A DNA stretch of 64,000 nucleotides from Tubulanus polymorphus (lineage: Eukaryota; Nemertea; Palaeonemertea; Tubulaniformes; Tubulanidae): positions 9,046,275 to 9,110,274 of the forward strand of contig NC_134032.1 in assembly GCF_964204645.1 (NCBI RefSeq), read 5' to 3'. Under the pieces are notes generated by a model, which searched no databases, had not been told where the DNA came from, and saw only the letters and a program-made list of their open reading frames with translations. Shown piece after piece: positions 18,458 through 60,874 of this stretch (position 1 is its first letter; each line of letters opens with the position of its first letter). Both the position numbers and the translations under genes were made by a program.

Positions 18458-18935
18458 GAGGTAGAATGGAAGGGAAACAGAGAAAGGAGGTGGAGTGAGG
18501 GGAGAGAGGTAGAATTGAAGGGAAACAGAGACAGGAGGTGGAGTGAGGGGAGAGAGGTAGAATTGAAGGGAAACAGAGACAGGAGGTGGAGTGAGGGGAG
18601 AGAGGTAGAATGGACGGGAAACAGAGAAAGGAGGTGGAGTGAGGGGAGAGAGGTAGAATGGACGGGAAACAGAGAAAGGAGGTGGAGTGAGGGGAGCGAG
18701 GTAGAATGGAAGAGAAACAAGAGAAAGGAGGTGGAGTGAGGGGAGATAGGTAGAATGAATGGGAAACAAAGAAAGGAGGTGGAGTGAGGGGAGAGAGTTA
18801 GAATGGAAGGGAAACAGAGAAAGGAGGTGGAGCGAGGGAAGAGAGGTAGAATGGAAGGGAAACAGAGAAAGGAGGTGGAGCGAGGGAAGAGAGGTAGAAT
18901 GGAAGGGAAACAGAGAAAAGATTGAGGGAGGTACA
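18458..18935. repeat. 48-bp purine-rich tandem repeat, about 10 copies
   Basis: Copies of GTAGAATGGAAGGGAAACAG then AGAAAGGAGGTGGAGTGAGG begin at 18461, 18509, 18557 and onward every 48 bp. Almost every base of one strand is a purine. Since 48 is a multiple of three, long repetitive open frames appear on both strands (Pro/Ser/Leu-rich on minus); I treat them as by-products. Confidence 0.92.
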
Positions 18936-36500: not shown

Positions 36501-39500
36501 ATTAAGATCCATTTTCATCCAAGCCGAGGGTGTTTAAGTTAAAATTCCCTGGGCAGTATTTCAATCAACTTGTTTGTTTTTCATCCACCATTTTCAGAAC
36601 ACCTTTCAGCCAACAAGAGGCGGATTCTGAATCCGAATGATATCAAACGAGCCTCAGAAAGATATCAGATTCACTTTTCTACTTTCGACAATTTGATACA
36701 TGGATTTACTTCAGAGAAAAGTTCACTTGATTTCAATTGAAATGTGGAAGTAATTTTTTTGAGGCAAGAATAAACCTAACTAGGGGTCCAGGGACACCAT
36801 GCCCACTTGGGAAGTGGTTTCCAATGCTCAACAATCTAACAATTTCAATGTTCAACGCCAACTGGTGACCATATACAAAAACCAATGACCTTGAACCTCA
36901 CCACAATCATAGAACATGTCAGCAGCTATGATTTTGTAATTGATTGTGATAACAAAATATGTCTCGTTACCAATTTAATATGGAAATACTAAGTATTCTA
37001 CTATTCAACGCCCCCTGGTGACCATATTCAAAACCCAATGACCTTAAAACTCACCATAATCATAGAAAATGTCATAAACTACAACTTTGCAATTGATCAT
37101 GATAACACAATATGTCTCATTACCAATTTAATATGGAAATACTAAGTATTCTACTATTCAACGCCCCCTGGTGACCATATTCAAAACCCAATGACCTTAA
37201 AACTCACCATAATCATAGAACATGTCATAAACTACAACTTTGCAATTGATCATGGTAACAAAATATGCCTAGGTACCAATCTAATAAGGAAATACTAAGT
37301 TATTCTACTATTCAACGCCCCCTGGTGACCATATAGAATAACTAATGTCCTTAAAACTCACCACAATCATAGATGATGTCATGAGCAACAACTTTGCAAT
37401 TAATTATGGTAACAAAATATGCTTACGTATCAATATAATGTGGAAAAACTTTTTCCCACCTTCCAATGAGTACTGATACCAAGATGGCCGCCAATTGCGT
37501 CACAAATGGCCGATCAAAAATACCTGGCTCAGGTATAAAACAACCCTTTCCAAGGAATACCCATCAAAAATTGCAATGAGAAATGGCAAACCAGTAGGAA
37601 GCTACAGGACTCAGAATTTGGGCCAAAATTAACAGTTTTGGGCACTAAAAAGGTCATAGGACGGCCATCTTGCGTCCGATCGACCCAATTTTTCTTATGG
37701 TGATGGGCCTTGGGGGGATTTAAATATATATGAAAGATCAAGGTAATTGATTTAAGCGTCTTTAAAATTTCCCTCAAAAAGTTCAAAAAGTGTAAAAAGT
37801 GCTGATTTTGACGAACAACAATGGCTGCCAGTCGGCCATCTTGAATCCGAGAGGGCCAGTTTTTGGGCTGAAGATGTGTCTAGAATAGACACATGTATAA
37901 ACCAAATATCAAGACATTACCTTGAAGCGTCTTCAAAACTTCCCAAAATAACTGGATTCCGTCTACGGACGGACGGAATAGCCATGAACGCAATAAACAC
38001 TAGAAACACTTGGTGGATCCTCAGCTGAATTTTCACTTTCCACAATGCCTCATTGTGTTCAATACATACCGACGTCATCCTCCGGCGTAACCTCGTGCTC
38101 CAACGTGAAGTCAACATTCTCCAGCATTGCAGTGGAAACGGACACGTTAAACTGTCGGTTGAGTTTAGTAAATATCGGTTGTTTCATTAACGCTTCTCGT
38201 GAACTGATCGACATGTCCGAGATAACATTATCCACTACGCTACAGGTAAATAAATAACACTACCTTAATCTAGAACTGCCTGCCAGAGCCAAGCAAACCA
38301 ATGCCTCGTCAATTACAAACCCCGTTGAAATCCACATGAAACTGAACACATTCTTCTACATTTTTAAACAAATAGGAATTCTTTCAAAATCTAATATAGC
38401 TACCAGTCAGCCATTTTACTTTGTATAGTAACATCATTTGTTCAGCTAGTTTGCCTTGGTATGTGACACACATATGCAAAATAAGACGAGTCTACATGAA
38501 AGAGTTTCAGAATAATAGGCTAATATCTTATCAAAAATTCAATACGGCCCCTATTTAGCCATCTTAGATGCAATATTGTAACAAATTTGCACTGCAGGTC
38601 GCAAATTGCAAGAACTCTCATGATGTGTTATCAAAATACAACAAGAAGAGGTATTCAGAGATATTCAGAAGGGCTTTTCAAGAAAAAGCTACTGGTTTAG
38701 ACTGATCGGTTAAAAAACTCACGTTTTCGGGAAAAGTCTCGTGTCATTGGCGGAAAGTGCACAGAAATCTTCCAATCCGTTCAACACATTATCCCTGGTT
38801 ATATGTAACATTCCTCGTAAATACAAATACGACGCCCTTAAACTTGACGACTTTGAGTTCTAGAAATATAACACCCAAGTTTCAGGATGAAAAAAATTCA
38901 AGTTAGGTCACATTACGTTGAGTGAGACAGGGCGCTTGACATCAAAAGATGAAAGGTCAAAGGATCCCTGGATATCTTCTTAGGAGATATAAGGCTAAGG
39001 CGTCAGCCATCTCTTCTCAAAGGGTAAACCCAGCAATCTAATGATGTCTTCTAGGGATTTTTCGATACATCTTCTCAGAGAATCTCTGGATAAATTTTTA
39101 AGAGTTATTTGATGTCATAGGAGAATGGAATTGATGGTGGCGGACACCTTTTCTCAAAATATAAATGTAAAGGAGCAATTTGATGATATCAAAGGGAGAT
39201 TTCTGGAAGCATCATTCCCGGAAGTGTCTCTAGGAGTAATTTGATGATGTCATTGGAGGATTGATGATGGCAACCATTTATTGTAGAAGATTCTACGCAG
39301 TTGTTTGATATGTTTTAAGTGCCAGGGGGTGACAGCCATATTTTTGGGAATGGGTCATTTACCGTTATGCAGGTGGAAAGTTCATCAATCGCTCGTTCTA
39401 TAAAATGTCGTCCTCCCTTCGCGACGTATTTGGGTAATACAAAATCCAGGATATCGTCCGATTCACGAACTAACAGCAAACCAGACTGACTGCCCCTAGC

Positions 39501-42500
39501 AATAAAAATCGCACAAATAATATCGAGGTGATTGTCACCATAAATCACCCTTTCACATCAACAGTCACGATCATTCTAGAGTTTCAATGATTTTCAGTGG
39601 TTTTTCGTTATTCACCCGTTCGTTCTATCACTCTGTTATCATTATCTTGTGATTATCTGAGTGGCATTATTAATTATCTGCATTTTTTGTATCGTATATC
39701 GGTTCGCTTGATAATAAATAGGATCAGATTTTTAAAAATTCAATGATCTCATAGGAAGTGTCTCTTTTCCGGAAGTGTCTATTGAAGTGATTCGCTAATC
39801 TCATGGGAGGATACATGCATGCAGCCATCTTTCGAGGTGTCTCCAGGAATAATTTCATGATGTCATAAGGGGACGTTTCATGATGTCATAAGCCTTATCG
39901 ACGTTGATATAACTGCGTTGAATCCGCGTCATCCGGATTTCGGTCTTATCCGGTCAATATTTGCAGTCCATTTGTTCATTAATATTCCGGAAAATGCCTC
40001 TCAATATGGATTTCCCGTAAACCGGATGAATTGTTTTGGCGCCAAATGATCCGATTTAAGCGGATTCTACTGTAATAATGATAATAATATTGATTATGAA
40101 GGCAACGTGAATATAAATTTGCATACCTGTGCGACGAAGAACGCGATGTTTTCCGAGTTGTTGGAGGCGCGCGAGTTTTTTCTTCCATCATCGACCACAA
40201 GTCGCGCTTCTGAGCGAATCGTTCTTGCAGAAATTTGTTGAACAAATCCGTCTGGAGAAACTGAGCGCGACGAGAAAAGCAATACCGTAGATGAGTAAAA
40301 TTATTCTAGGAAAATAATGTCCGAAACGAAGTGCGGTAGAAATTAGGACCCAGTTCAACAGGCTCGACTCTTGAAGTAGTCGGAATTAGTTCATTTTCAA
40401 TATTACTGTAGAGAAAGATCCTCGTAACTGTGGAACCCGAGTCGAATCAAATGAAATTTCCTATTACTTTGTTGACGTACCTCTTCGTAAAATGGTTTCT
40501 CCTCTGTTGCCCTTGATGACAGGAACGCTTTATGTTTGAATTTAGCCTTATCGACGTTGATATAACTGCGAACATCGCTGAAATGAGACATTGTTTCAGA
40601 AAAACCGATCATTGAAGATTTTGGACTAAGGGTCATGTAGCAAAAATAAGAATTCGACCAGCTTCCAATTAGCTCTGCAATCTGCTCATCAAATTGCTCA
40701 AAAATACACCCTTCTAGAATGGATGTCATAAATTCCTCTATAACATCATGAAATTAGTCTTAAAGACCCTCAAGAAAAGACGTTAGTTTTCATAAATCCC
40801 CGTGTGACAAATCATATTACCCCAGTACACTCAACTTGAAAAGATGAATGCCTTCATAACCCAATAACATCATCAAATCACTCTCATAGACCTGTTTTAC
40901 TACTAGCCTTCATATAGATTACCATATGACATTATCAATTTACCCCAAAAGACTCTAACAGAAAAGATGGCAGCCTTCATAGTTCCAAATCAAATTACTC
41001 TTATATCCCGAAGAAACAATGATTTCCTACCTACATCGGTGGACAACGACACTGGTTTTATTTCAAGTCAGAACAATTTAATCAGAACGGCAACGCTGTG
41101 AACTTTTCATCGAAACACTCACCCGAATAAATTCACCATCAACTGAACGAAACAGCCAACGATATTCTGATGAAACCGAAACTGATGTTGTCGCCGCGAC
41201 GTTGCCATTTCTTCCATTGTCAACGGCGACAGGCGATCGACCGTTTCGAGTTCGTAGTGAACTTTAGCCGATTTGAACGATTCTTTGAACGCGTCGACAC
41301 AGTGTTTTGGTATTTCGGGAACTAGGAGGGTTTCGCAGACATTCACGCATCCGTAATCCAAATCCACGACGACGATTCCTTCAACCTGAAAAGTTTTCAT
41401 TAAGAAAATTTCTAAGTACCGGTAACTTAAGTCTCATTCAAACTTAATTAAACTTTAATCTTTAATTCATCTTTAACATTTCCCCAATACATACATGGGA
41501 GATAGTTTGAAGGCCCCAGTTTAAAATCATAGAAGCGGTCTAGATCGGTCTAGGTTGCTAGATTGGTTGTATAACTTGAACTTAGACTTGGACTTTTAAG
41601 TTGTTCAATTGGTTTTTAAACAAACATAAACTTAGACCAGCCCCAGATTTTAGAATCGCTTCAAAACTGAAATGAGTCTATGAATAGTTAGATATAAAAA
41701 CCAAACGAATTTAGACAAGTTTTATGTATGTTGTTAGATTATAATAATCATTCATGTGCCTGTATAGCGCAATTCCACAAAAACTTAATCATTGCACATG
41801 ACATTTAACTAAACATTTAAACATTAAAGCAGATTACAACAATCAATCAAGAGTACATTTGTCAAATAAAGGGTTTTTATACATTTTTTCAACATATAGT
41901 TGAATATTCAGCTTTAGTGAAACTTAGTCTGGTCATGAATCTAAATATTTCTGATCAAGAAAGGAAGCATTTTCATGTACGAGTAGAAATGCGTTAAAAG
42001 AACGAACCTGTTGAACTTGGTTTCTGTGTATCGAGCTGCAGCCCATGATCCATGTACCAGGCGCCTCGATATACTCGAGTAAGTTGTTCGCTAACACTGG
42101 TACGTATGTATACCTCCACATAAATGGATAGATAAAATTCAAAAATGCCTGAAAACAAGATGTTTAAACAAAGAACTGAAATTTGAAATTTTTTAAAAAG
42201 AGAGAAATTACCATGATCGACTTCGTGTTCGAAAATATTCTAAAAAAGTTTTTTAAATTCTTCATAGAAATAGAAATGCGAACCTCTTGAGTGATGGTCA
42301 ACAACGCGTAGTTTGCCGACAGAAATAACGTTCGTTGCTGCAGCAATAGGCAGCTAACGACCTTGAGAATGTCGTCGACCGGCAGACAGTAAAATATACA
42401 CGACAGCGGAATATCGATGACCTGTTTGCCGGGAAACGCAGCCGGTAGCAGACGCACCGCCTCACCGAATAAGTTGAACCTCTGAAACGAAGACAAAAAC

Positions 42501-45500
42501 TTTATTTCTATAATCCCGTTCAGCTTGAAGATGCCGCACGGCAGAAAACCTGTTATCGCTGCTTTGCAGCTATATTCATGACATTCCTAAAAACCTAACG
42601 CTAAGGCCTCTTGATACTGGGTTTTCATCAACTCTTATCCAGCCAATTTGATTGCAATACATGTAACTCATTCAATATGTAACAAAGCCTTTGGTTACAC
42701 AAAATTTAAGACCACATTCAATCTAAACAGAAGAATCAACAAGCTTGAAAAGGTTTTCGAAATTAATTTCAGAATTTTTTTTTGTTGCGTAGAAGCCAAG
42801 TCGTCAGATTGGATCTGCAGTGGACTCAAATGCTCTGTTTTACTGCAAGTTACATTCTGAGTAAAATGTTGTGAGGAGACCCAGCACCTGCGAATGAACA
42901 ACCCAGAACACCAGCATTCCGCCGGGAATTTCTATTGGAATTTGACGTGCTGTCATCTACAAAAGCATCATGCAAATCAACCAATAACGGAATATTATCA
43001 TGAATTTGGAATCAAAACTTACGAGGGCTAACATGCCAGCAGGGGGCACCGGTGTCTGCGTCAGTCGGATCGCGATGTCTTTCAGGTAGCCGTCGAAATC
43101 GTCGGGATTCGTTTTAATTCGACTCACCAAGCTGTAACGAAATTAAAATACCATTTATTTTTATAAGTTTGAAATATCTAAAATTTCGGCCACTCCATGC
43201 TAAACGTTTGGTCCGAGACCTGGCTCTATAGAACTCAAATAACAATCTGAATATCTAGAGTTTAAGTAATTGGAAATGAGATGATTTTAACTGTAAAGTT
43301 AAAGTAATTGAAAATGAATTTATTTTAACTGTAGAGTTAAAATGATTGAAAATAAGAACCAATTTTGACTGTAGAGTTAAGATAATTGAAAATAAGAACC
43401 AATTTTGTCTCAAGAGTTGCTTGCAACTGGCTGCGCATACATCAACTGCAATTCTCCACCAATACTATATCGAACTGAAGTTATAACCTGAGCACAGTCC
43501 GGTAGCATCAGCATATACATAATTCTAGAGAAATAATTATTGAAAAGCGAGACACTTTGAAACACCTCTAAATACAGAAACTACGGTAATTACAGCGATA
43601 CGGAGCTGATCAAAAATACGAGACCAACGCCAGTTTGACTGCGAGCTCTGCACAAAATAATTGGACGCAAATATCAATCCTAAATACTGTTCAAAAATAC
43701 GTCGCAATTTTCCTCATTCGCAAATTGATAATCATTTTCGAAGCTACTCTCATGAAATGCATTCGTTTTGATGCCGTGAATTTTGTTCAACATGCAGCGA
43801 ATGCAAGCGTTGTTTGTAGTTTTACTGATCGCTTGTAGAGATTGTATATTCATGTTGGCTGATCCCCGCGCAGACTCTATCATAGAGGAATCATCTGTGA
43901 CCATCAGTTCATCCTGTAACAACACTCACTACTCCGTCGATTCTACGTCTGGTTACATCGTTACACCGAATTACCCTTCATTAATGCGCGGTGTTGAATA
44001 TCGTTGGTTCGTCAACAGTTCTTTACCGGGAACTTTTAACATCATACTTTACTTCGACATCGAGCCGTCAATATTCTGTAGTGATAACTATCTTCTCATC
44101 GGTGGTGAGTCTGATAACAGATTCTGCGGCAATGGAGGAAAACAACTTGATATCAGCAGTAAAGATTTGATTTCATTGTTGTTTAGAAGCCGCGATGGAG
44201 CGCAAGGTAGTCGGGTTTATATCATATACCGTTTTGAAAAACAGAGTCGCTTTAAAATTACACATAAATGCCGCAAAGGTGAAGTAAAAGAAACACCATC
44301 TGAAACAGGTTATAGATTCATGTTTTTTTTTCTATGGGGATGTAAATTGTTTTTAGAATGGATCGGGATGCCAGATGGTTTCGCTATGAATTTAACGTTC
44401 ATACAGATAGATTTCCAATTATATCCCGGTGAGGATCCAGTGAAAACTAGTCCTCAAATTTACGACGGATGGAACAGCACCAGCGAACCTATAGCTCTTA
44501 TACGAGAACAAACTGGACATCCACCTTCATCGTTTTATACTAAAACTAACAAAGCACGTATTGAAACCATTTCAAATAGGCGCCGATCATTTCAGTCTGA
44601 ATTACTCGTGCAAGTTTACAAAATATCAGATTGGAACATTTCGAATCCGTTAAATCGAGTCGACAATAAATCAGGAATTCTCATTCCAACTGATGGAATG
44701 CCACACATAGTAACTCGCTCTAAACACTTACACTGCTGGTCTATCACAGTCGATGTTCTGCAGTACGTCGTTTTTAACTGGACGCGTGATCTCGTCTCGT
44801 CACCCCGTGTCGTCGGTGTATATAAACTGGAAGGGCTACACGTTGTAGAACCTGATATTTTACTCAGTCACAACTACCTCCAATCACTGAGTGTAAAATC
44901 ACACGGATTTCTCGTAATTCTATGCGTTTTAATGGGAACCGGTGTTTTTAGATCAAATACAAAAATCAAATTTGAAGTTGAATCTATGACAACATCGGAT
45001 ATCTACATTAACGAGAAATGGTTATCGGTAAGTTGATTAGAATTATCTTTAAATACATACTTCGTATTCAGACAAAAGATTGACGCGTTCTGGTGAGGGG
45101 TGTTCACGAAAATACCTCAGAGGATATGACATCGTCCATAAATCCTCCTGTGGCGAATCTCTCAAATATTTTGCCAGATCACCTAAGTGATAATATTTTC
45201 TGTGAAATATATTTTGAAGAGATACTCTCAGTGCATCTTCAGGAATACTCATACAGTATTCCCAAAAATAACTAAATAGAATAATAGCCATAACGTCGAA
45301 TTAACTACTGGCACAAGGAAACCTCACATTATTTTTGTCGTTCTTATTATGGGATTCTCTAATTATTATCGTATGATTATCATTATCGTATCATTATCAT
45401 TATCTCTATGATTAATTTTCTTATGTATTACAGCATTCGATGATAGTGAACTCGTTAAGAGGACACTCGTTAATAGGACATTCTCTTTTCCCCAAATCGA

Positions 45501-48500
45501 TGAGTAAATTATATCGTGTAACTACATTAAAATTCAACTGGAAAGTGAACATTTATGAAGAACAGTTTGGACTAACAGTGCAATCAGAAAACTGTGTTCG
45601 AGCCGGTTTTCATATATTTGATGGTAGTAATTTCACAGCTAGACGCTACGGTCCGTATTGTCCTGGTTCATACTATGGTCGCTCTGTCGTCAGTCTGATA
45701 ACATCAGGTGGACCGGTTACTGTAGTAGCATACGCTTACTACTATAACGATCAGTTAACAGGTGGCAAATTATATCTTAAATTTGCTCCTACTGATTGTG
45801 ACAGTTTTGTTCTTCAGGAAGGAGAACTTCAAATCAATACAACATCACACTGTGTCTTGATTATACCTGAAAACCGACGACTGCCTTTAAAGAACATTCA
45901 CATATTATCAAAACATGAATATAAAATTGACCAATGTTTTCTTAAGATGGAATTGCCGTGCGACGATTATTTCAGTTTGAGTAGTCAGATTCTCAACAAC
46001 AGTCTCGTATTAACCACTGTTCATTTCATCAATAATGAGTATTCCTTCTGGCAACAACCACTAATAGTCAAACTATATCGTCGATGCCTAAGATTGAAGA
46101 AAACTGACAGTTTTGGACTTATGGGTAGACGACGTCTGATTACGACTTATGATGAATGTGGACTTGTACAGTCACCAAAATACCCAGGAGCAGCAGGATA
46201 TTCACTAGAATCAGTGTTCTATGTGTTTGAAAACGCAATACATGAGAACATATTTCAATATTATAGATTTGTCATCAAAAATATTGGATCGGTTTCATGC
46301 CAAACAAGTACATACGGGAAACATCTGAAATATTATTATGCAATATCATATTTACAGGAGATCAATTACAACATCTTCCATAATGGAAAACATTTAAAAA
46401 CCATTACATTCCTACATGAAACTAAGATATGTGAAGATAACGCTGTACATGGGCTGATTTTTCATAGTATCAGAGAAAATTCTTTACTTTTCGAAGTAAA
46501 AAATCATATACCCACATTTCAAATACAATACACTTTACACAAGGCATTATTAGAGATAAAAGATTCCAATGGTTTTTACTGTAAAGAAGGATTTCTGTAT
46601 TCCGGAATTTCCTGCATCAAATACATCAGAGAAAAACGTCTGAATTGGGAGTATGCTGAATTGTACTGTAGACAGAAGTACGCGGGACATCTACTCAGTA
46701 TCAACTCAGAACAGGAAATGATCGCTATTAAAAGATTATTTGCAACACATCTTCTACCAAAAGCGTACTCACTAAAAGCTCTCATAGTGATGATTGGATT
46801 GAAATGGCAGGTAATACAAATTTTCTTATAACATACACAAAAAAAAAACAAACGAATTTAGAAATTACTGACATTCATTATTTTTTCATCTAGCAGAATG
46901 CTGGTCATTATACATGGACTGATGGGAAACCATTGAGCTACACAGAATGGTACAAGCCTGCTGTTAATGAAACGATACCAGAAGTTATTCAAGGATTGAT
47001 ATCTCCTCTACGAAAACAACCAATAAACGACATCGATATGCCGTGTACAGCCATGATACTGAATAATCCACGAGGATCGGCGAACTGGGTTCGATTCCCG
47101 TGTCAAATTGTGGAGACGCATACAACATTCATATGCGAGTCAAGATACAATGCAACAAGGAAACAGTTAAATAAAACCTTAACTTCAAGGATTCCCAATG
47201 ATGGTACGGTCACAAATTCAACCTGCCTCAGAGGTTGGGTAACTATAGCTGGACAATGTCATCAGATACTTACTGACTGGAATAACAATCGAGGTATCAA
47301 TATTTCAAGTGCTAGAGATATGTGTCACATGAAAACAACCTCAAACCTTGAAAGCAATATAGATAATTTGATGAACCAATTTCGATATCAACATCAATAT
47401 GGAGCTATTCTAACAATGAACGACGCCGGGTTCCAAGTTATCAAACCAATGTTGACCAGAGATCAAATCACTTATGTTCAATCTGTTGAATGGTTCATGA
47501 AACCCTTTGATAATCTAACAGATACAGTGCATTCCGTGGTGTGTACCAACAATGTAACTGGTGAAGAGTTAGCTTCCATAAGCGGTTGTAAATTCTGGCA
47601 GTTCGAATGTAATGATCAAAGATGTATCAGCAACCATCGTGTATGTGATACCAGACACGACTGTCAACACGGCGAAGATGAACTCAATTGTACGGATATA
47701 AATTTACACAGTCAGTTTCGATGCTCTGATGGCCAGGTTATATCAATCAGTGGTTTCTGCGATTTCATACAGGATTGTCCGGATGGCTCTGATGAGAACT
47801 CCTGTTTTCATCCCCCGTGTTTGCACGAACAATTTCGCTGTAAGAGTGGTCAATGTTTCGGTAGGTCTACCAGGTGTGATGGAATCACTAATTGTAAAGA
47901 CAGCTCCGATGAAATGGAATGCACTCCTGAACTGTGTCATGGGTTCTTGTGCGCAGATGGTGAATGTATCAGTTCTCAGCTGTATCAGGATGGTGTCGTG
48001 GATTGTAGTGGGAGTCTTGAAGAAGATGAATTAGTCACTAACAAGATGCTGAATCCAGAGGTTTATTGTAATAATAACAATCACTGTACAACTCGTTTCA
48101 CAAAACTCTGTAGGGAATCTGATGAACAAAGGTGTTCTTTCGATTCTCCTCATTGTTATTCCCGCCACCAAAGGTGTATTTTAGAAAGGATGCCGATTGG
48201 TTACCCAGTATGTAGAAGGCTTGAGCATGTGCAAGGTTGCGCTGATTTCCAATGTCCGGCTGGTACAGTCAAATGTCCAGCATCTTACTGTATACCAATC
48301 AGACACATTTGCGACAATGAATCAGACTGTGCTAATTCTGAAGATGAACATAACTGCATCACATGGACCTGTCCGGGAATGTTTAAATGTGGTCAGGAAA
48401 ATCGATGTATTCCGCAATCTGAAGTTTGCGATGGTGTCGTAAATTGTAAACATAACTCAGATGACGAGGCTTTCTGTAACGTTAAGTGTCCTGATCGCTG

Positions 48501-51500
48501 TCATTGTCGGGGCCATTTCATCAATTGTGAAAATGCATGTATATCAGATATTACTGGTTATTTTACTGAATCCAGTCGGGTTTTAATTATTCCGAAGAAT
48601 CGAGTAGTATTCAACGAGTCCACATTCTTTTCTTTCGTTTATCTTCGTTTTCTCGATATTTCTCGCAATAATTTGTCTTACATCGTTCCCTATTCATTTT
48701 CTAAACTACACAATCTATATACATTAGACCTTACTTGTAACCACATAACGGCCATATCTGCTTATACATTCGCAGGTTTGAATGGCTTACAGGAACTATT
48801 TCTTATTGCAAATCCGCTGCAACATTTAGAATACGGTAGTTTCCGAGGTCTGACATCACTTACTGTTCTCGATCTTCATGGAGTTTCAATATCCGTTCTT
48901 AGTGAAAATGTATTTCAAGGTTTACCGATATTACAAGCATTAAATATCAGCAATAACAAAATCCATTATATTTCAAATCATGCTTTTTCAGGATTGATTG
49001 CACTTACAATTCTGGATCACGTCAACAATTCAGAAGTAATATCCGTAGAAGGAAATGTTCTCAGCAATCTGACATCGTTGAAATACCTTGCTTCGGATGC
49101 TTACAAATTTTGCTGCATGGCTCCGAATGTTGACCGGTGCCTTCCTGAAGCGGATCAATTTTCAACATGCTCTGATCTGATGGGTAACAGTGTACTTAGA
49201 GCCATCACCTGGGTGATTGCATCTTTCAGTTTTCTCGCGAACAGTCTGGTTCTTTTATTTCGTGTTCAAGCGTTGCGAATGGAATCCTCCAGAACGCGTA
49301 ACACCTCTTCCGATATCCTCATCATGAATATTGCCGCTTGTGATTTTCTGATGTCAATCTATCTATTTCTGATAGCTGGTGCTGACCACGTGTTTAAAGG
49401 TGTTTATTTTCTGAATTCAGAAACTTGGACGGATAGTTCAATGTGTCGTCTCGCAGGGGTTATTGTGACTGTTTCGTGCGAAGGCTCTTTAACTTTTCTC
49501 TTAATTCTAACACGTCAGAGATATTCAAATATCGTCAACCCGTTTTCAAGGAATCCAATCACTACTCCAAAATACGTTATCGGTATTTGCTGTGTTTGTT
49601 GGCTCGTTATCAATACTGTTTCTATTCTACCGCTCTCATCGTCGTCTTACTTCGGAGACAATTTTTATGGTACAACCGGAGTTTGTCTACCTATGAATTT
49701 ACTGACGATCAATGTCAATGGCTGGCAATATTCATTCGCCATTTTTGCTTTGTTTAATACGGTAATATTGGCTACAATAATGACGACATACGCTCAGATG
49801 TATAGACTCGTATCGGGAAGCAGATCAGGGTCGGGTAGAGCCGATCCTACTGAACTGGTATTAGCTCGAAGGAGTTTAGTAATCAATCTTTGTAATTTGT
49901 TTTGCTGGTTACCGATAATAATCGTTCAGTTTTGCGCTGTATTTTCAGTCGAGATACCAAACCAGGTGGCCGCTTGGCTGGCCGTTTTATTTTTACCGAT
50001 CAACTCGTCTCTGAATCCGCTTCTTTATACGATTCTAACAATCGACACAAAATCACTTCGAGAACGAAATAAACGAAGACGAGGAAATAAACAATAGGTT
50101 CACACGAGTCTTTAACCCATTAGCACTCAAGCCACCCGTATTCACCCTGCCTATTACTACTCAAGCTGCCCGAATCCACCCTGTAACCTTTTTTTATGCT
50201 GCAGAAAAACCGTTACAGCGGGATCTGAACCCAATAGCTTATCATAAACTAGACACCCAAGTGCTCAAAATACCGAACCGAAATCAACATCTTCCTCTTT
50301 CAATTTCTCGAGTATTTGGAATGTGAAAATGATAGATCTGAGCGCTCACTTCAAATTCAAGTAGGTTTGGACGAATTTCGGGGGGCCAAAAAGAAATGAT
50401 TTTGGTTGCCTACCACATGAAATCTTACATCTTACTACAAAATAACACAATTGAGTTCGCAATGGTGTGATTTACACAAGGTTTAATAAACTGCAATTTG
50501 AAATGAATTCATTTCAAATGTTAACTTAAATCCATGGGGCTACAGGGACTACTTCTGTGGCAATTGAAATTTTATACAAAATTTGTCGGGTTCGATAGTG
50601 AGACTACCGATATACGGCAGAAAAGCGCCTCACGGAAACTACCGCCGATCGCTACTGCATAAAAATTACCGAATTTAAACCAGTTGATTCCAAAATGCTG
50701 AGAAAATGCATCTGCACACCTAGAAATTATATAAAGTTCCTGATGCAGCGCTCGTTTTCGGACCACCACCATGCTTTAATTTCAACCCAGCGAGAACACT
50801 GCTTGTTTTGGACTGCGGACAGGACCAAGTTTCACAGTTTGTCAACGGGGAGTTGAATATTCGTTCATTCAGCTGAAGAGCTAATTTGAAAGAAAAAGAA
50901 AACTTACCCAGAAAGACAATCTTTAAGGACGGTAAAATAGGGAAACTTCGAAATGAGAACAATACAACTCGGCACATAACAATAATATTGGTTATCGTCA
51001 AGTTTGATGTCGTCGTCCGGGGGTTCTAACGAAAATGGCATCTCCCGGGAATCAGTCTGGAACAAACAACAAAATATTCATCTAAGTATCGCCGGTATCA
51101 AATTTTCGTAATAAGGGATACAGTTGGTGGATTGCAGGCACAGGCATGTAGCCAGCCTCTTATCCTGGATATCCTATCACGGAACCATATGGGGATGCGT
51201 AGGTCCTCCTCCAGAATTCTACCACTTCCGGATGCATTATGAGCATTTGTAGCGATGCTAACTTTATAATCTTCAGCACATCAATCCGAAGAAATTGTTC
51301 TTGGAAAATGGATTTTGGAATTTTTGGGGTTTTTTTCAGTTTCAACACTTTCAACTCAATCCATAAAATCTACAAAACCCTCTTAGCGAACTTGGTCCAT
51401 GACTGGTGAACTTCGGCCAAATTCGGCTTGACTGAAACATTGGACGCGGCCCATACTAAATTCAACACTAGGAAAGTTATTCCATGTGAATGTTAACTGG

Positions 51501-53511
51501 TTCTCTGGAATTGCCTCATCTATTATTTCAATAGCATTTTAGTGAAGATGAGCCCCACTGGGTTTTTTTTGTTAGATTTTGGATATCTTCGGCCCAGAAG
51601 GGTTTTATTTCTCTACCTGAGTAGCGACGTATTTTCTATGCATAGTGACACAAGTTGCGTAGGTTCTCACTCCTGTTATATCGGTTAAAACCAGATGATG
51701 AACCCTCTCTCTGTGTGCGCTGTGATTCACAAACGCGCCATCTAGTGAAAAAACAATACAGGTTTCTTACAGATCTGGAAATCAAAAATTCCCTGATAAT
51801 TCCCTGATTTTCCCTGATCCTTGACCCGAAATTACATGATCATCGTCATCAGCAGTAAAAACAGCGAGGCACCGAAAATTCAAATTTATACATCAAAATA
51901 TATCAATCATTACGGAGTTTAACTCCCTATGAAATTTGGAGATAAAAACATCCGGATCAAGTTCTCGGTTAAGTAGAGTGTATTCAATGCAGTTTATTCT
52001 GACCCCAGCTCCATAAAAACAGCGCCAGTGAGATTCAAGGTAAAACTGGTCCATAATAGCCAGCCCCCTGGTAATTCAGATTTAAATGGTCTCCCCTAAC
52101 TCGACAATAAAACCAGCCCCAATGCAGCAGTCAATCTGCTGTTTGTATCCAACCCCTCAGAACACATTTTTCACAAATGGTGACTGTCTGTCTAAGCTTG
52201 ATGGTTCTGACATAACGCCCTCATTCATTTTCAAAGAAAAATTTCTGGGGTATCGCCCCAGGGGTTGGTGACATCTGATCGAGCATGTTTAAGGAAAAAG
52301 GTGAACATCGAACATCTGAGGGGGGTGTGCACAGACAGCAGGTCGATAGTTGCATAAAGGGTAAAAGTTACAACTGTTCTAACTAGACCCTGCTCATTTT
52401 TTATAAGATAAAAGGCAAAACGAAAGGCTATGATATCGGGGCCAATGAACTTCACTCACCTGGAAAACAGAACAGAGTGAGCGCCTTCACTTCGTCCGAC
52501 GACATGGCCATCTCTCGATTACGCAACGACAGTTTGCGCAACGACGACCTGCGATGAGCAGCCGACAGCAGGCGTTTATTCTCGAGACGATCTTTCATTT
52601 CCTGAAAACCATGACGACCGCCGCTGTCGCCGTGAATGGAGTCGAATTGTTGCGGCGACTCTAAACCGCGGAGGTTCGGGTTCAATTCGATCGGCGGGTA
52701 GCGCCGGTCGCGGTTGATCAGATTCTGCGGGAACGACGCCGTATTTTGGTTGATGACGGCGAGCACTTGCGGGTCGAATTCGCGACCGAATAAAGTCGCA
52801 GCCCGTTTTTCCGCAACGGGGCCATTCAACGGCTGAAAATAATTATGATTTCGATGATAATATCTTCTGCGGTAAGCGAGGATGTCAATTGTGGGCAGTA
52901 AGCAGTAGGATATCAAATAGGCCTACAGTCAGCCCCGATATACCGCCCACATCGGTGCAGAATGATTTTGGCGGTATAGAGAGTATGGCGGTATATCGGG
53001 GGTGTTTTACAATGTATTTGTATAGAGATGTAGGCCTACAGTGAGAAAACCTGGCGATAGGCGGGGTGGCGATAAATGGGAGGGCGGTATATCGGGGGTT
53101 GACTGTACTGTGAAAAACGGAGGATTCCACTTGCAGCAAATAAGGATCCAGCAGGCCGCAAGTTAGGATCCACCAGCTACGCTAGTGCGCAGTAGGATAT
53201 GAACTCCTGTGGCAATAGAGGATTCTATTCATGGCAAGTGAAGATCCGCTACATGTCGCCAGCACTTCCACGCTTCAATCTTTTCTCTATTTCAATCAAA
53301 TCAACTTTTCTGATCAATTATCAACGAATACTTAACCAAACTCCAAGATAAGTGAATCTTAGATTCATTTCCATAGGCCAAGGGGCGGATGTGGAAATAA
53401 GACGAAAAGACCAAATCTTACACTCAGTAATGGTCGAAGTCCGGAATGTCGATCCATGCCCAACACGACCAGCGAGTCGACCAGCGCATTGTGTAACTTT
53501 TTACCAGGCAT
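28560..53511 (-). CDS. DENND3: DENN domain-containing protein 3 (Rab GEF), 25 recognised exons
   Basis: Exons: 53511-53422, 52832-52460, 51719-51617, 51056-50908, 43131-43023, 42956-42888, 42481-42284, 42148-42008, 41385-41123, 40577-40481, 40251-40127, 39489-39363, 38859-38723, 38239-38070, 36312-36199, 36094-35914, 35829-35699, 33565-33403, 33176-32980, 32356-32226, 31634-31483, 31084-30945, 30451-30327, 29548-29426, 28844-28560. All but one junction keep phase with GT-AG introns; about 1297 codons (human about 1200). An N-terminal DENN module, a linker with a PH-like domain and C-terminal WD repeats form the DENND3 layout. Known DENND3 activates Rab12 in endosome and autophagy traffic. The start at 53511 has an in-frame stop upstream. 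The junction 52460/51719 is out of phase, so a short exon is missing or another acceptor is used. Confidence 0.95.
29020..29400. repeat. Intronic run of ATGACATCATC units
   Basis: Several diverged copies of the unit with AGAAAAGATGGCTGCCNCCAT and CCNATGACATCATCAAATTA lie in the last DENND3 intron. A second run lies at 31110-31450 in another intron, with ATC triplet and C-run expansions. Confidence 0.75.
30560..30885. mobile_element. Degenerate relative of the TTAA MITE family
   Basis: Contains the family's TACACTGCAATGCGGTGT and GGTGCTGCCATC-like words, plus ACACCGAATGGGTTAA at the right end; the left end is eroded. It lies in the DENND3 intron 30452-30944. Confidence 0.5.
31110..31460. repeat. 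Intronic run of ATGACATCATC units with ATC and C expansions
   Basis: Four to five copies of the roughly 60-bp unit in the DENND3 intron 31085-31482, including an (ATC)n stretch at 31193-31228 and a C-run at 31441-31454. Confidence 0.75.
31939..31977. repeat. (GTAC)n/(CATA)n microsatellite
   Basis: ACGTACGTACGTACATACAT then repeated CATA. It explains the repetitive open frames on the minus strand here. Confidence 0.9.
33566..35698. other. DENND3 intron (2.1 kb) with a recurrent GGTAACGGAATTA motif
   Basis: No coding sequence is supported. The motif GGTAACGGAATTA occurs at 34339-34351, 34500-34512 and 35052-35064 and inverted at 34905-34917, with a one-mismatch inverted copy at 34880-34892. 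The bases between the copies are not obviously repeated. A fragment related to the 153-bp array at 36853 lies at 35240-35325. Confidence 0.6.
35699..39489 (-). CDS. DENND3: DENND3 exons 12-17: linker with PH-like domain
   Basis: Residues about 573-859. Exons 39489-39363 to 36312-36199 encode a helical linker. Exon 13 includes ASYLYLRGMLHITRDNVLNG, a TPR-like helix pair. Exons 36094-35914 and 35829-35699 encode TGTGYLILTSKRLLFVLDGR, the usual strand pattern of a GRAM/PH fold; this corresponds by position to the PH-like (PHenn) segment reported in mammalian DENND3, a linker implicated in ULK-dependent control and actin binding. Whether such control holds here cannot be judged from sequence. Confidence 0.85.
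36853..37450. repeat. 153-bp tandem repeat, about 4 copies
   Basis: Copies begin CAACGCCCCCTGGTGACCAT at 36853 (diverged), 37006, 37159 and 37313. The middle copies are nearly identical, so expansion was recent. A single related piece is at 35240-35325. The remainder of this DENND3 intron (36313-38069) shows no exon. Confidence 0.92.
38930..39265. repeat. ATGACATCATC units, opposite orientation
   Basis: Inverted copies (AATTTGATGATGTCATAGGAG-like words and GGCNGCCATCTTTTC) fill the intron 38860-39362; a second inverted run is at 39735-39890 and a forward run at 40725-40985. Confidence 0.7.
39891..39917. pseudogene. 27-bp copy of a DENND3 exon fragment inside an intron
   Basis: The 27 bases are identical to 40544-40570, which lies inside the exon 40577-40481 (codons for R/SYINVDKA). 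The copy sits in the neighbouring downstream intron, directly against the end of a MITE-like sequence (39918-40075). It has no splice sites and cannot work as an exon. Confidence 0.85.
39918..40075. mobile_element. MITE remnant with AAGCGGATTCTACTGTAA end
   Basis: The right end ATTTAAGCGGATTCTACTG resembles the ends of the 409-bp MITE at 1784-2192. The left end TTGAATCCGCGTCATCCGG is only partly inverse to it and its outermost bases are replaced by the 27-bp exon copy. Confidence 0.55.
40127..53511 (-). CDS. DENND3: DENND3 exons 1-11: tripartite DENN module
   Basis: Residues 1-572 approximately. uDENN: LTLFCFP (exon 2), VHHLVLTDITGVRTYA (51719-51617), YCYVPSCIVLISKFPYF (51056-50908). cDENN: FNLFGEAVRLLPAAFPG and IPLSCIFYCLPVDDILKVVS (42481-42284), then FMWRYTYVPVLANNLLEYIE with APGTWIMGC (42148-42008). 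dDENN: GIVVVDLDYG (41385-41123) through NLFG-DVRSYINVDKAKFKH (40577-40481) to FNKFLQERFAQKRDLW (40251-40127). In DENN proteins this part binds the Rab and drives GDP release. The exon at 42956-42888 (23 codons, QIPIEIPGG) fits by phase and splice sites but is less certain by similarity. Confidence 0.92.
41510..41760. mobile_element. Degenerate foldback of the CTTAGAC family
   Basis: CCCCAGTTTAAAATCATAGA on the left, with CTTAGAC/GTCTAGG words and a central palindrome; diverged from the 16.3-kb family. It occupies most of the intron 41386-42007. Confidence 0.45.
43132..43791. other. DENND3 intron 5' of the nested receptor gene
   Basis: This 660-bp stretch must contain the promoter of the plus-strand receptor starting at 43792, since the DENND3 exon ends at 43131. 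It holds three or four diverged copies of TTTTAACTGTAGAGTTAAAG (43285-43400), each an imperfect palindrome. No clear TATA box or other core promoter element is evident. Confidence 0.4.
43792..46810 (+). CDS. Receptor exons 1-2: signal peptide, CUB region, start of C-type lectin domain
   Basis: ATG at 43792 is preferred over an upstream TTG in the same frame. CUB 1 spans roughly residues 42-154: a Cys start, GYIVTPNYPS, YRWFV, a CSDNYLLIGG core and RFCGNGG. A weaker CUB-like unit follows at about 160-290 (IYDGWNSTSEPI), then others with SENCVRAGFHIFDGSN and CGLVQSPKYPGAAGYS near 450 and 640. Exon 2 ends inside the lectin domain after WEYAELYCRQKYAGHLLSIN and IGLKWQ, with a clean GTAATA donor. 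Several CUB units lack the usual second disulphide, suggesting divergence. CUB modules typically mediate extracellular protein binding. Confidence 0.88.
43792..50097 (+). CDS. GRL101-like receptor: CUB, C-type lectin, LDLa, LRR and 7TM, nested in DENND3
   Basis: Exons 43792-45027, 45434-46810 and 46897-50097 (TAG), all joined in phase 0, give about 1937 residues. Order: signal peptide (ALFVVLLIACRDCIFML), CUB and CUB-like units to about residue 790, one clear and one degenerate C-type lectin unit (about 790-1090), six LDLa units (about 1100-1400), an LRR cap and repeats (about 1400-1630), and a rhodopsin-type 7TM core (about 1639-1915) with a short basic tail. The LDLa-LRR-7TM part matches type-C leucine-rich receptors (Lymnaea GRL101, relaxin receptors); ligands of GRL101-type receptors are mostly unknown. 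It is probably a plasma-membrane receptor for a peptide, lipoprotein or glycan. The gene lies on the opposite strand inside the DENND3 intron 43132-50907. Confidence 0.93.
46891..46896 (+). promoter_or_regulatory. Tandem NAGNAG splice acceptor
   Basis: The acceptor of receptor exon 3 reads TAGCAG. Use of the first AG adds one Gln codon before Asn; both choices keep the frame, inside the lectin domain just before GHYTW. Confidence 0.7.
46897..50097 (+). CDS. Receptor exon 3: lectin end, LDLa x6, LRR, 7TM
   Basis: A single 3.2-kb exon. It opens with the lectin signature GHYTWTDGKPLSYTEW; a second lectin-like unit follows (CLRGWVTIAGQCHQI ... VVCTNN). LDLa units carry the Ca-binding acidic tail: CDTRHDCQHGEDELNC, DCPDGSDENSC, NCKDSSDEMEC and NCKHNSDDEAFC. 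LRR cap CPDRCHCRGHFINC precedes about six repeats. In the 7TM core, TM3 ends RQRY in place of DRY, TM6 has CNLFCWLP, and TM7 has NSSLNPLLY. A 3.2-kb intron-free exon holding LDLa, LRR and 7TM suggests a retrocopied or intron-lost ancestor fused to upstream CUB exons; that history is inference. Confidence 0.92.
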   Translation, partial: NAGHYTWTDGKPLSYTEWYKPAVNETIPEVIQGLISPLRKQPINDIDMPCTAMILNNPRGSANWVRFPCQIVETHTTFICESRYNATRKQLNKTLTSRIPNDGTVTNSTCLRGWVTIAGQCHQILTDWNNNRGINISSARDMCHMKTTSNLESNIDNLMNQFRYQHQYGAILTMNDAGFQVIKPMLTRDQITYVQSVEWFMKPFDNLTDTVHSVVCTNNVTGEELASISGCKFWQFECNDQRCISNHRVCDTRHDCQHGEDELNCTDINLHSQFRCSDGQVISISGFCDFIQDCPDGSDENSCFHPPCLHEQFRCKSGQCFGRSTRCDGITNCKDSSDEMECTPELCHGFLCADGECISSQLYQDGVVDCSGSLEEDELVTNKMLNPEVYCNNNNHCTTRFTKLCRESDEQRCSFDSPHCYSRHQRCILERMPIGYPVCRRLEHVQGCADFQCPAGTVKCPASYCIPIRHICDNESDCANSEDEHNCITWTCPGMFKCGQENRCIPQSEVCDGVVNCKHNSDDEAFCNVKCPDRCHCRGHFINCENACISDITGYFTESSRVLIIPKNRVVFNESTFFSFVYLRFLDISRNNLSYIVPYSFSKLHNLYTLDLTCNHITAISAYTFAGLNGLQELFLIANPLQHLEYGSFRGLTSLTVLDLHGVSISVLSENVFQGLPILQALNISNNKIHYISNHAFSGLIALTILDHVNNSEVISVEGNVLSNLTSLKYLASDAYKFCCMAPNVDRCLPEADQFSTCSDLMGNSVLRAITWVIASFSFLANSLVLLFRVQALRMESSRTRNTSSDILIMNIAACDFLMSIYLFLIAGADHVFKGVYFLNSETWTDSSMCRLAGVIVTVSCEGSLTFLLILTRQRYSNIVNPFSRNPITTPKYVIGICCVCWLVINTVSILPLSSSSYFGDNFYGTTGVCLPMNLLTINVNGWQYSFAIFALFNTVILATIMTTYAQMYRLVSGSRSGSGRADPTELVLARRSLVINLCNLFCWLPIIIVQFCAVFSVEIPNQVAAWLAVLFLPINSSLNPLLYTILTIDTKSLRERNKRRRGNKQ
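50485..50490 (+). promoter_or_regulatory. Poly(A) signal AATAAA for the nested receptor
   Basis: First AATAAA after the receptor stop codon, about 390 nt downstream and still 420 bp short of the flanking DENND3 exon at 50908. Confidence 0.55.
51720..52459. other. DENND3 intron that probably hides a short exon
   Basis: The exon at 52832-52460 ends with one base of a codon and the exon at 51719 starts with one, so an in-frame join needs an extra short exon here or an internal acceptor about 9-10 bases into the next exon. uDENN domains usually have some 10-20 residues between FCFP and the VLTD strand, which favours a missing exon. I could not identify it. Confidence 0.5.
52926..53105. mobile_element. 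180-bp pogo/Tigger-like MITE with TA target duplication
   Basis: The left end CAGTCAGCCCCGATATACCG (52926) is the inverse, with two mismatches, of the right end GGTATATCGGGGGTTGACTG (to 53105). TA flanks both sides (52924-52925 and 53106-53107). The interior repeats the GGCGGTATATCGGGGG word. No transposase. It lies in DENND3 intron 1. Confidence 0.85.
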
Positions 53512-58088: not shown

Positions 58089-58993
58089 ATGCAGTCTAAT
58101 CTAGATTATGTCCTTCAGATATCGCCTGTCATAACGATGATCATAATGTTGCTGATGTTTCTAACTCTGATTCAATCGGTCAGAGATTTTTAAGTCTCTT
58201 TAATAAATCAGATGACAACAATAATCTTCCTGTTAACAAGGATTCGAATGATTTATTAGACTTTTTGAGATCTGAGGTTCAGTCTTTTAAAGTGACTGGA
58301 CCTCCGTTAAATGAAGATATTTCGTCTTTATTGACTCAACTTCTATCCGGTTTCGGATCCAACGATCCAGAAAAGAAAGAGTTTCTAGACAAGCTAGAAC
58401 GTAAGGCTAAGGACTATGCTTGTCCTGATAATACATCAAAGTTGGCTGTTACGAAAGTTAATCAGCCTATATGGATGAAACTTCCTAAAGAATCTGCAGC
58501 CTTTGATGTTAAACTGCAGAAAATCCAAAATTGGAATCTTCGGGGTGTTACAGCTATCTCTCGTGTTGTTGAAAGTTTAACTGATTCCTCTAAACATTTA
58601 GATAGGAAATCGTTAGGGGCCATTTTGTATGATGCGCTTTCGTTTATCGCTCAAGGAAACTTTGAGTTGAATTTGAGAAGGAGAGAGCTTCTTAAGAAAG
58701 ATTTTAAAGATTCTTTCAAGCCGCTTTGGCTACCCTCGAATCCCATTGGGGATCAATTATTTGGGGATAACCTTGACGAAAAATTAAAAGAAATCGAAAG
58801 GACAACTAGAATGGTTGGGAAACTTCTTCCTACTAATTTTCGTGGTCGTGGCCGTTCTAGCGCTTTGAGAGGTCGTGGTCGTGCTCGGTATGGCAGATTT
58901 CAACCATATCCTAATTATAGACCTTCAAATTATACTCCAAACAAGAAGGATTTTTGGAGGAAGGGCCAGTTTCAGGACCAGAAAAAATGGTAA
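58089..58993 (+). pseudogene. gag: DIRS gag-like gene, frameshifted near its start
   Basis: The ATG at 58089 opens a frame that stays open only to about 58194. The long frame (open from about 58112 to TAA at 58991-58993) lacks an ATG near its start, so a small indel around 58100-58130 probably broke the gene. The long frame gives about 290 residues with an Arg/Gly-rich tail (RGRGRSSALRGRGRARYGRF) followed by a Tyr/Pro-rich stretch, consistent with a nucleic-acid binding Gag of this class. Similarity of the N-terminal part to any Gag was not tested. Alternatively it could be expressed by frameshifting. Confidence 0.75.
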
Positions 58994-60874
58994 GTCATTC
59001 CTTACCTGTAGCTGGCCGTATTCGACATTTTTTGACCCTTTGGGAGTCATTAACTTCAGACAGTTATTTATTAGATTGTGTTAAAGGTTACCACATTGAA
59101 TGGGAAAACCTCCCTCCATGTCAATTGGAGTTGCCTCGAACTATTTTCTTTTCGAGTAAAGAGCAGTCTGCAATAGACGTTTTATTATCTGAATTCCTTC
59201 AGAGGGGAATTATTGAGTTTGCTTCTCCATCTCATGGTCAATTTATTTCAAACATTTTTGATGTCCCCAAGAAAGACTCTGGGTTTAGACTCATTTTGAA
59301 TCTAACTCATCTGAACAAATTTGTAAAATATTGTCATTTTAAAATGACTTCATTGAATACTGTTCTGAATTTAATGACGCCAGGTTGTTATATGGCTTCA
59401 TTAGATTTAAAAGATGCCTATTATTCTATTTCAATTTGCCCTGAAGATAGGATATTCCTTAGATTTATTTGGAAAGGTCATCTTTTTCAATATACATGTC
59501 TCCCTAATGGGATTTCTTCGGCGCCTAGACTTTTTACGAAATTATTAAAACCGGTTTTAACACCATTATGTCAGTTAGGTTACATCTCTGCTGATTATAT
59601 CGATGATATTTATTTGCAAGGGCTGGATTGTATCGAATGCAGTTCGAATGTATCGATTTCTAAAACACAATTACAAAATTGTGGTTACTTAATTAATGTG
59701 GTCAAGTCAGAGAAGAAACCTGATGTTCAGAGAAAGTTTCTTGGTTTTTGGTTGAATTCAATGACTTGGAAGGTTTTCTTAGGTCAGGATAAGATTGAGA
59801 AAATAATCAAAGAGTGCTCCACATTGTTGCTCAAACCAAATCCGTCTATTTGGCATATTGCCCATGTCGTGGGTGTTCTAGTTTCTTCCTTTCCTGCTGT
59901 GCCGGCAGGTCGATTATATTATCGAAATTTAGAGAAAACTTAAGTCTATTTCTCTTTCTCAATCGTTAGGAGATCTCAATACTAAAGTCTCTCTTTCTGA
60001 TGAAGCTAAGACTGATTTAATTTGGTGGATTGAGAATATTTCTCATTCTGCTTCTGCTCCAATTACACGTCATGCGCCTGATATAACTATTACCACTGAC
60101 GCATCTCTTTCAGGTTGGGGTGCAATTATCAATCAAACTAAAACCTATGGTTTTTTTTGGAATGCGCAAGAGAAATTGAATCACATCAATATTCTAGAGC
60201 TAAGGGCAGTTTTGTTTGCCCTTTTATCGTTCAGTGGACTTATTCAGAACAAACATATTCTTGTTCAATTAGATAATACCGTTGCAGTAGCCTACATTAA
60301 GAATCAGGGAGGAACAAAATCTCCTCAGTTGAATAGTTTAGCTAAACAGATTTGGCAATTAGTCTTCAAATTTAATTCATGGCTTTCTGTAACTCACATT
60401 TCAGGAATATCGAATTTTGATGCAGATATTTTATCACGCGTTCAATCGGTCAATAAAGAATGGCAATTAGATAAGACTGCGTTCTCTGATATTATCAGAG
60501 TTTTTGGACAACCTGAAATTGATCTATTTACATCTAGAATTAATACCCTACGGGTTAAGTTCATTTCTTGGCATCCTGATCCTCAACCTTTTTGTATAGA
60601 TGCATTCACTGTGAATTGGTCAAATTGGTATTGGTATGCCTTTCCTCCATTTAGTTTAATTGCTAAATGTCTGTCTAAAATTCAACAAGAAAAAAGTCAC
60701 GGAATTCTTATGGTGCCTAATTGGCCGTCACAATCATGGTATCCAAAGTTGATTAACTTGACTAATCAAACTTTCACTTTATCTTGCAGAAAGAATTTAC
60801 TACGTCTTCCTCAAGATCCAGAGAAAATCCATCCGATTTACAAACAGCTAAGTTTGCTGGTTTGTCGCTTTTAA
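58987..60874 (+). pseudogene. pol: DIRS reverse transcriptase/RNase H with methylase-like domain, one frameshift
   Basis: ATG at 58987 overlaps the gag stop by 7 nt. RT: LQRGIIEFASPSHGQFISNI, DSGFRLILNLTHLNKFVK, MASLDLKDAYYSISI and the catalytic YIDD at about residue 204. The frame stops at 59941-59943 and continues one frame over from about 59933, next to an A-run, which suggests a 1-bp insertion. RNase H follows (TTDASLSGWGAII, INILELRAVLFAL, VQLDNTVAVAYI, HISGISNFDADILSR). The end (EIDLFTSRINTLRVKFISWH ... WYAFPPFSLI) matches the DAM-methylase-like tail typical of DIRS elements. It ends at 60874 inside the recombinase gene. Confidence 0.9.

Follow-up and report, generated by a model that had tools for sequence, protein, structure and literature searches.

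The closest described relatives of the gene reported here are G protein-coupled receptors (GPCRs) of the GRL101 type. In Biomphalaria sudanica, 12 clustered GRL101-like genes, two of them incomplete, were described from SudRes2, a region tied to schistosome resistance (PMC12297450). GRL101 itself was reported as one ortholog per ambulacrarian species studied and proposed as an insulin-like growth factor receptor (PMC8286064), and one GRL101 was reported to be raised in starfish sensory tentacles (PMC6267866). Here we describe a gene of this type in a 64,000-nucleotide stretch of the genome of the nemertean Tubulanus polymorphus (C8:9046275-9110274, hereafter the window; C8 is contig NC_134032.1), where it lies on the opposite strand within an intron of a DENN-domain gene.

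Nested structures were reported to comprise 4.3-8.7% of the protein-coding genes of seven vertebrates (4.4% in human and 4.3% in mouse), the human and mouse share being about half that of Drosophila; simple nested pairs were on opposite strands in 220 of 296 cases in human and 193 of 248 in mouse, and nested pairs had raised expression divergence in Drosophila, with no significant increase in mammals (PMC8467205). Nesting by itself is common and ordinary in animals, the opposite strand being the usual orientation, and, given these published shares, the strand bias and the expression divergence, the arrangement alone predicts little.

A receptor gene within a host intron

The receptor gene is nested antisense inside one intron of the DENN-domain gene, and the window that holds both is free of N. 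An earlier note on this DNA had proposed that two DENND3 exons, 43023-43131 and 50908-51056, join in phase, and they do so, giving one open frame with the other two of the three frames closed. The interval between them, 43132-50907, stood as a single intron, but its length had been given as 7.9 kb and measured 7,776 bp. That a whole three-exon receptor gene fits within it on the other strand was confirmed; the gene spans 43792-50097, the greater part of the intron, and is intact, with 1,937 codons. The host features, all on the minus strand, are as follows.

52460-52922, minus strand: probable upstream host exon, with donor GGTGAGTGA at 52460 and a phase that fits the exon at 51741-51617
51617-51741, minus strand: host exon carrying the end of uDENN (20.1 bits against a cut-off of 22.3)
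50908-51056, minus strand: host exon 5' of the nested intron, with a portion of the DENN domain (splice sites, frame and Pfam DENN on the joined chain)
43132-50907, minus strand: host intron holding the receptor, 7,776 bp
43023-43131, minus strand: host exon 3' of the nested intron, DENN domain continued in phase (splice sites, frame and Pfam DENN)
42284-42481, minus strand: host exon, DENN domain (66 residues, whose sole match in the genome is itself)
42008-42148, minus strand: host exon, DENN domain (Pfam on the joined chain)
41123-41385, minus strand: host exon, end of the DENN domain and residues beyond (Pfam on the joined chain)
28563-31637, minus strand: probable 3' part of the host gene, open frames with weak beta-propeller (WD-type) matches in three of four frames scanned

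The exon at 51056-50908 is bounded by an acceptor ending in TTCCAG and the donor GTAAGT, and that at 43131-43023 by an acceptor ending in TTACAG and, again, GTAAGT; reading through past the first of these donors meets an immediate stop. The six-exon host chain of 327 residues matched Pfam DENN over residues 68-250 (E 5.2e-38; 131.3 bits, cut-off 23.4), and the junction across the nested intron falls within this match. A Pfam scan of the exon at 52460-52922 alone gave no match. Against the 7,776 bp of the nested intron, the five others measured in the host range from 135 to 718 bp.

When the chain was compared with solved structures by phmmer, DENND1B and DENND1A were recovered and no others at E ≤0.01. 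DENND3 is marked out among its relatives by C-terminal WD repeats. The beta-propeller matches in the downstream frames (best E 1.3e-4, all below cut-offs) fit DENND3 but lie in frames that are unspliced to the DENN part in our model, and the host is therefore named DENND3-like. A 153-bp tandem repeat of 3.9 copies, at 36851-37450, separates the host DENN exons from the beta-propeller part.

A poly(A) signal accompanying the receptor had been put forward in the earlier note. The AATAAA at 50485 proves nothing because the motif occurs at shuffle frequency across the window (111 observed, against a mean of 111.04 in shuffles).

Domain structure of the receptor

Analysis of the three exons identifies the receptor as an intact member of a GRL101-like family with LDLa repeats, leucine-rich repeats (LRRs) and a seven-transmembrane (7TM) domain of the relaxin-receptor type.

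43792-45027, plus strand: receptor exon 1, CUB in the family; the conserved Cys70 is Tyr here
45434-46810, plus strand: receptor exon 2, encoding an extracellular region and, at its end, the start of a C-type lectin domain
46894-50097, plus strand: receptor exon 3, rest of the lectin domain, LDLa repeats, LRRs, 7TM and stop

Both introns are GT-AG. The acceptor of exon 3 is at 46894 or 46897, the count of 1,937 codons plus stop being obtained with 46897. Exon 3 gave Pfam matches above cut-off to 7tm_1 (85.2 bits, cut-off 30.5), to LRR_8 next to it (100.7 bits) and to Ldl_recept_a in six stretches (100.2 bits). Within the 7TM part, FCWLP and NPLLY, motifs of rhodopsin-class 7TM domains, are present, and QRY occupies the position at which DRY is usual. 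The best solved match across the LRR and 7TM parts was relaxin receptor 1 (PDB 7tmw; exon 3 residues 606-1056, E 6.6e-71). Four LDL-receptor-like chains outranked it through the LDLa repeats. Relaxin receptor 1 is a peptide-hormone receptor without a CUB or lectin domain.

Taken alone, the N-terminal half of the window copy gave one weak lectin match and one chance-level match, and the outer domains were identified through the family. Pfam CUB was found in nine of 10 exon-1 sequences (best 2.8e-6), the window copy being the exception, and the exon-1 family profile matched cubilin (E 1e-11). Residue 70 (43999-44001), in the CUB region, is Tyr in the nested copy and Cys in all nine other aligned copies, a change that possibly reflects early decay or an altered outer domain. 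Lectin_C was found at E ≤0.1 in all 10 exon-2 sequences (best 8.4e-4); for the window copy, where exon 2 holds the start of the domain alone, the match was at E 0.048 (14.8 bits, cut-off 22.6). The corresponding family profile matched C-type lectin folds in the PDB (best E 4.3e-5).

A different AATAAA, at 50086-50091, ends three bases ahead of the receptor stop codon. This motif is found again close to the stop in five of six other copies compared, namely the two nearest copies, two on C9 and one other on C8, and is absent from a copy on C12, hinting at a very short receptor 3' untranslated region.

A large receptor family

The earlier note had treated the receptor as a single gene. Across the genome (267.8 Mb in 77 contigs), a 30-base pattern taken from the transmembrane (TM) 2 motif identified 299 sites with no more than one mismatch, and the reversed-pattern control none. 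The count is complete, with site positions known for the first 100; since the pattern may take in related clades and duplicated assembly stretches and may miss diverged copies, the figure of ~300 sites gives an order of size. Searches with the exons gave, for exon 3, the window plus 42 near full-length matches at 80-84% identity (best 43 of 828 candidates), four of the 42 carrying an internal stop; for exon 1, at least 101 scored matches (of 361 candidates); and for exon 2, at least 92 (of 379 candidates). A 65-residue TM segment matched in 150 of 150 scored cases (best 150 of 344 candidates), 23 of which, by hand count, lie in open frames of fewer than 1,000 residues, and the same segment from a C10 copy likewise in 150 of 150 (best 150 of 341 candidates). 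Arrays on C9, C6 and C12 account for most of the scored copies, and others are scattered.

Several features of these copies were noted in passing. At C6:19.82-20.11 Mb, several receptor copies are repeated at a fixed distance of ~232.3 kb, their scores equal or nearly so, which reflects either a segmental duplication of recent date or a haplotype left uncollapsed. Copies L003 and L004 (C8:2.35 and 3.16 Mb) lie 813 kb from each other yet share 98.9% identity over 8.4 kb, and a third copy, at 3.56 Mb on C8, has an equal TM score. The copy at C9:16.31 Mb has a second receptor adjoining it. Long open frames lie beside the dispersed copy L008 (6705-9998, minus strand), one of them tyrosine recombinase-like by eye, and possibly represent another DIRS-like element. 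At C4:4.332-4.342 Mb (L017), open frames that by eye resemble a protease gene with CUB, LDLa and trypsin-type parts adjoin a receptor copy.

The surroundings of four dispersed copies were inspected by eye and without family searches for host exons, a weak check under which other nestings are still possible. The copy at C4:8.27 Mb (L009) is flanked by two same-strand transporter-like open frames, taken as separate genes on either side; among the best 60 open frames around the copies at C8:11.23, C9:16.31 and C4:4.33 Mb, no clear exon pair enclosing the receptor was seen.

Edges of the receptor unit

The three exons matched as three separate blocks in all 10 other copies tested. In this comparison exon 3 of one broken copy was present in three frame pieces and exon 1 of another was cut by the end of the stretch; for these other copies, the comparison was one of exon matches. 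That the compared copies share three exons, with the introns kept, argues for copying at the level of DNA. An origin as a retrogene was rejected on the same grounds, two introns being retained here and the other 10 of 10 copies likewise lying in three separate exons.

The following features mark the two sides of the receptor.

43256-43406, plus strand: 38-bp minisatellite 5' of the receptor, with similar stretches elsewhere on C8, C10 and C6
43485-43666, plus strand: upstream stretch common to other copies, possibly a promoter carried along
50115-50448, plus strand: 5' fragment of a miniature inverted-repeat transposable element (MITE), its terminus CCCATTAGCACTC preceded by TTAA, directly next to the point where receptor homology ends

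Homology to the two nearest copies, which lie on C8 ~185-190 kb away, extends from a few hundred bases 5' of the start codon to 15-17 bp past the stop, ending at 50112-50114, immediately before the MITE begins at 50115. A search with the upstream region returned 73 matches including the window, of which 23 on C9 and C22 were at 69-74% identity and one C8 copy was at 75%; the other 48 represent the 38-bp minisatellite, here at 43256-43418.

For the MITE, at least 39 other matches were scored (of 379 candidates). The window fragment retains the left TTAA but is truncated at ~50448, its right end missing. In all three longer copies the termini are CCCATTAGC(A/G)CTC and GAGTGCTAATGGG, inverted relative to each other and matching over 12-13 bases, with TTAA at the left flank in two of three and at the right in none (TGAA, TTGA, TGAA). 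Elements of the piggyBac-like class are flanked by TTAA at either end and have inverted termini of the form CCC...GGG. The TTAA and the CCC...GGG ends suggest a piggyBac-like element, though the right TTAA is missing in all three longer copies.

Beyond the MITE, the best similarity of the intron to the 3' flanks of the two nearest copies was a repeat-like stretch of 51 bases (72.5%, E 0.001), and a search for repeats within the nested intron gained little. Subtraction of the receptor unit (43256-50114) and the MITE (50115-50448) leaves 583 bp, which resembles the neighboring introns (135-718 bp); from this we infer that the receptor unit was inserted into an ordinary small host intron.

A mosaic with a broken copy

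One of the two nearest copies, copy a (C8:9.278-9.285 Mb), is a broken one, with exon 1 interrupted by an in-frame stop and exon 3 by frame shifts. Comparison of the window copy with copy a in 300-bp windows revealed an uneven pattern of identity, with one long stretch of near-identity.

46293-49900, plus strand: mosaic stretch near-identical to copy a, at ≥94% in 10 of 12 windows of 300 bp and 89-90% in the other two

Up to 46.3 kb, identity was 79-94% over exon windows, 55% where the window was mostly intron 1 and 47% upstream. The 12 windows between 46.3 and 49.9 kb were 89-98% identical; the one after them, at 77.5%, extends beyond the homologous stretch. Copy b, the other nearest C8 copy, did not have this pattern. 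The maximum chi-square value was 148, at 46293; none of 1,000 permutations came up to it, the largest giving 19.5. When a C9 copy served as the outgroup, derived sites shared by the window copy and copy a numbered 60 (versus 45 and 37) before 46.3 kb, 143 (versus 11 and 16) after it and 0 (versus 3 and 0) in the last 215 bp; intron 1 is poorly aligned and adds noise to the 5' part of this test. These observations point to gene conversion as the simplest reading of the mosaic.

Rates of codon change

The ratio of mean nonsynonymous to mean synonymous substitution (dN/dS) among nine copies was 0.124 for the 7TM domain, 0.162 for the LDLa repeats, 0.184 for the LRRs and 0.310 for the lectin domain and linker, as is characteristic of purifying selection that, judged from codon changes, is strongest in the 7TM domain. 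L004 was left out of both protein alignments and the dN/dS set on account of its likeness to L003, and L010 out of the dN/dS set; because of a single in-frame stop in each, L001 was omitted from the alignment of exon 1 and L007 from that of exon 2. Exon 3 of the broken copy was excluded from the nine-copy comparison and compared in pieces on branches. Over the 1,066 codons of exon 3, a comparison disturbed by the mosaic, the window branch carried 33 synonymous and 18 nonsynonymous codon changes and the broken-copy branch 25 and 31; in exons 1 and 2, the window branch carried 51 and 70. The nested copy is thus maintained as a gene whose outer part changes faster.

Other features of the window

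Upstream of the host gene, at 58100-61833 on the plus strand, overlapping open frames include three that match reverse transcriptase, an RNase H-like domain and a tyrosine recombinase (phage integrase), by which the stretch is identified as a DIRS-like retroelement. A 48-bp tandem repeat of 9.7 copies (94% matches) at 18452-18918 coincides with overlapping long open frames and a strong GC skew.

Discussion

We consider it probable that the receptor gene was copied as DNA into an intron of the DENND3-like gene, that both genes are transcribed, that the product is a cell-surface recognition GPCR and that its gene underwent conversion with the copy ~185 kb away. The receptor unit, with its introns and upstream region, would have been copied from other copies into an intron of ~0.6 kb. 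A promoter of its own would drive its transcription, with splicing on the plus strand; host transcripts would run across the receptor, which would be lost when the host intron is spliced out. The CUB, lectin, LDLa and LRR parts would bind an external ligand at the cell surface and the 7TM part would signal through G proteins, the role of the receptor most likely being recognition of microbes or environmental chemicals. Despite its isolation, the nested copy may have exchanged sequence by gene conversion with the copy ~185 kb away.

Several observations weigh against parts of this account. Exons 1 and 2 evolve faster, with dN/dS of 0.25-0.58 (in the nine pairs listed per exon); a faster outer part is consistent with ligand recognition, though relaxed constraint would give the same picture. 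The window copy is alone in having neither a Pfam CUB match nor one cysteine that nine other aligned copies keep. At the edges, no target-site duplication was found, shared words at the ends of the MITE fragment being none longer than 4 bases, and the junction of receptor end and MITE is unique: of 11 pattern matches, the one without mismatch is the window itself and the other 10 have three mismatches. The second end of the conversion tract depends on 21 variable sites. An immune or chemosensory role, although the most likely one, is drawn from published relatives.

The mosaic itself could date from the birth of the nested copy, had this been made as a chimera of two copies with no later conversion. 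A single breakpoint, at 46293, accounts for most of the signal, and exon 1 dS is 0.137 between the two C8 copies, against 0.178 and 0.223 to the window. We nevertheless regard such an origin as unlikely: between 49900 and 50115 the window copy and copy a agree against copy b at two of 21 variable sites, whereas copies a and b agree at 12, which suggests two tract ends, as gene conversion predicts, though 21 sites are few. An artefact of assembly or polishing between similar copies is very improbable. Large families of similar copies are prone to such errors, and fixed-offset copies with equal or near-equal scores do occur elsewhere, but the tract is mostly 94-98% rather than 100% identical, and the partner copy is broken whereas the window copy is intact.

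Turning to the insertion, it is doubtful, though less so than an origin as a chimera, that the repeats at the edges, the upstream minisatellite and the downstream MITE fragment, drove it by ectopic recombination. The abrupt replacement of receptor homology by the MITE, the recurrence of minisatellite-like stretches elsewhere and the truncation of the MITE would fit, but the same junction occurs at no other site, and the 3' edge is accounted for equally well by a MITE that inserted later and then underwent a deletion. The earlier note pointed to a risk of transcriptional collision and double-stranded RNA in such nesting and raised the idea of mutually exclusive expression. That antisense interference would confine the host and the receptor to separate cells is in keeping with the opposite strands and full containment; it is nonetheless improbable, as nested pairs in mammals have no significantly raised expression divergence, even if those of Drosophila do (PMC8467205). 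Least credible of all is that the host halves are two genes with the receptor between them: the intron is indeed more than 10 times longer than the five others measured, but a single DENN domain continues in phase across the junction and read-through meets a stop immediately, and on these grounds a split host gene was rejected.

With DNA copying into the DENND3-like intron and later conversion as the preferred account, the receptor family and the mosaic, rather than the nesting, merit follow-up. In the literature searched, which was mostly non-subscription, no published description was found of a receptor family of this size or make-up, nor any earlier report of the expansion and mosaic. The family is uncommon, with ~300 CUB-lectin-LDLa-LRR-7TM sites against 12 clustered genes in the snail resistance region. 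We would give rather little credence, for now, to the broader proposal that these ~300 GRL101-like GPCRs form a recognition repertoire in which even an antisense, intron-locked copy keeps exchanging segments, broken copies included. If true, the dispersed copies and pseudogenes would constitute a donor bank that diversifies or homogenizes receptors. The family allows a test of whether it is an invertebrate recognition repertoire and of whether a gene-trapped copy still takes part in gene conversion.

Among nested genes, those described in PMC8467205 are comparable in that the internal gene is derived by duplication, on the opposite strand and within a single intron; the receptor here differs in having three exons and 1,937 codons. 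Sgs4 and ng in the dunce intron of Drosophila (PMC10835880) likewise belong to a gene family and lie within a gene unrelated to it, but encode glue proteins rather than receptors; in that system, gene conversion was reported for the related glue genes Sgs3b, Sgs7 and Sgs8.

Among receptors, relaxin receptor 1 (PDB 7tmw) resembles the present one in its LRR and 7TM parts. GRL101 of Lymnaea and ambulacrarians shares the many LDLa repeats, the LRRs and the 7TM domain of LGR type, but LDLa and LRR are the domains named in PMC8286064, where the term "C-type lectin" has no occurrence in the text available, and the orthologs are single. The SudRes2 receptors are likewise GPCRs with C-type lectin, LDLa, LRR and 7TM parts encoded by clustered genes; they number 12, in contrast to ~300 sites here, and whereas the family in T. 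polymorphus has CUB in exon 1, "CUB" appears nowhere in the main text of PMC12297450.

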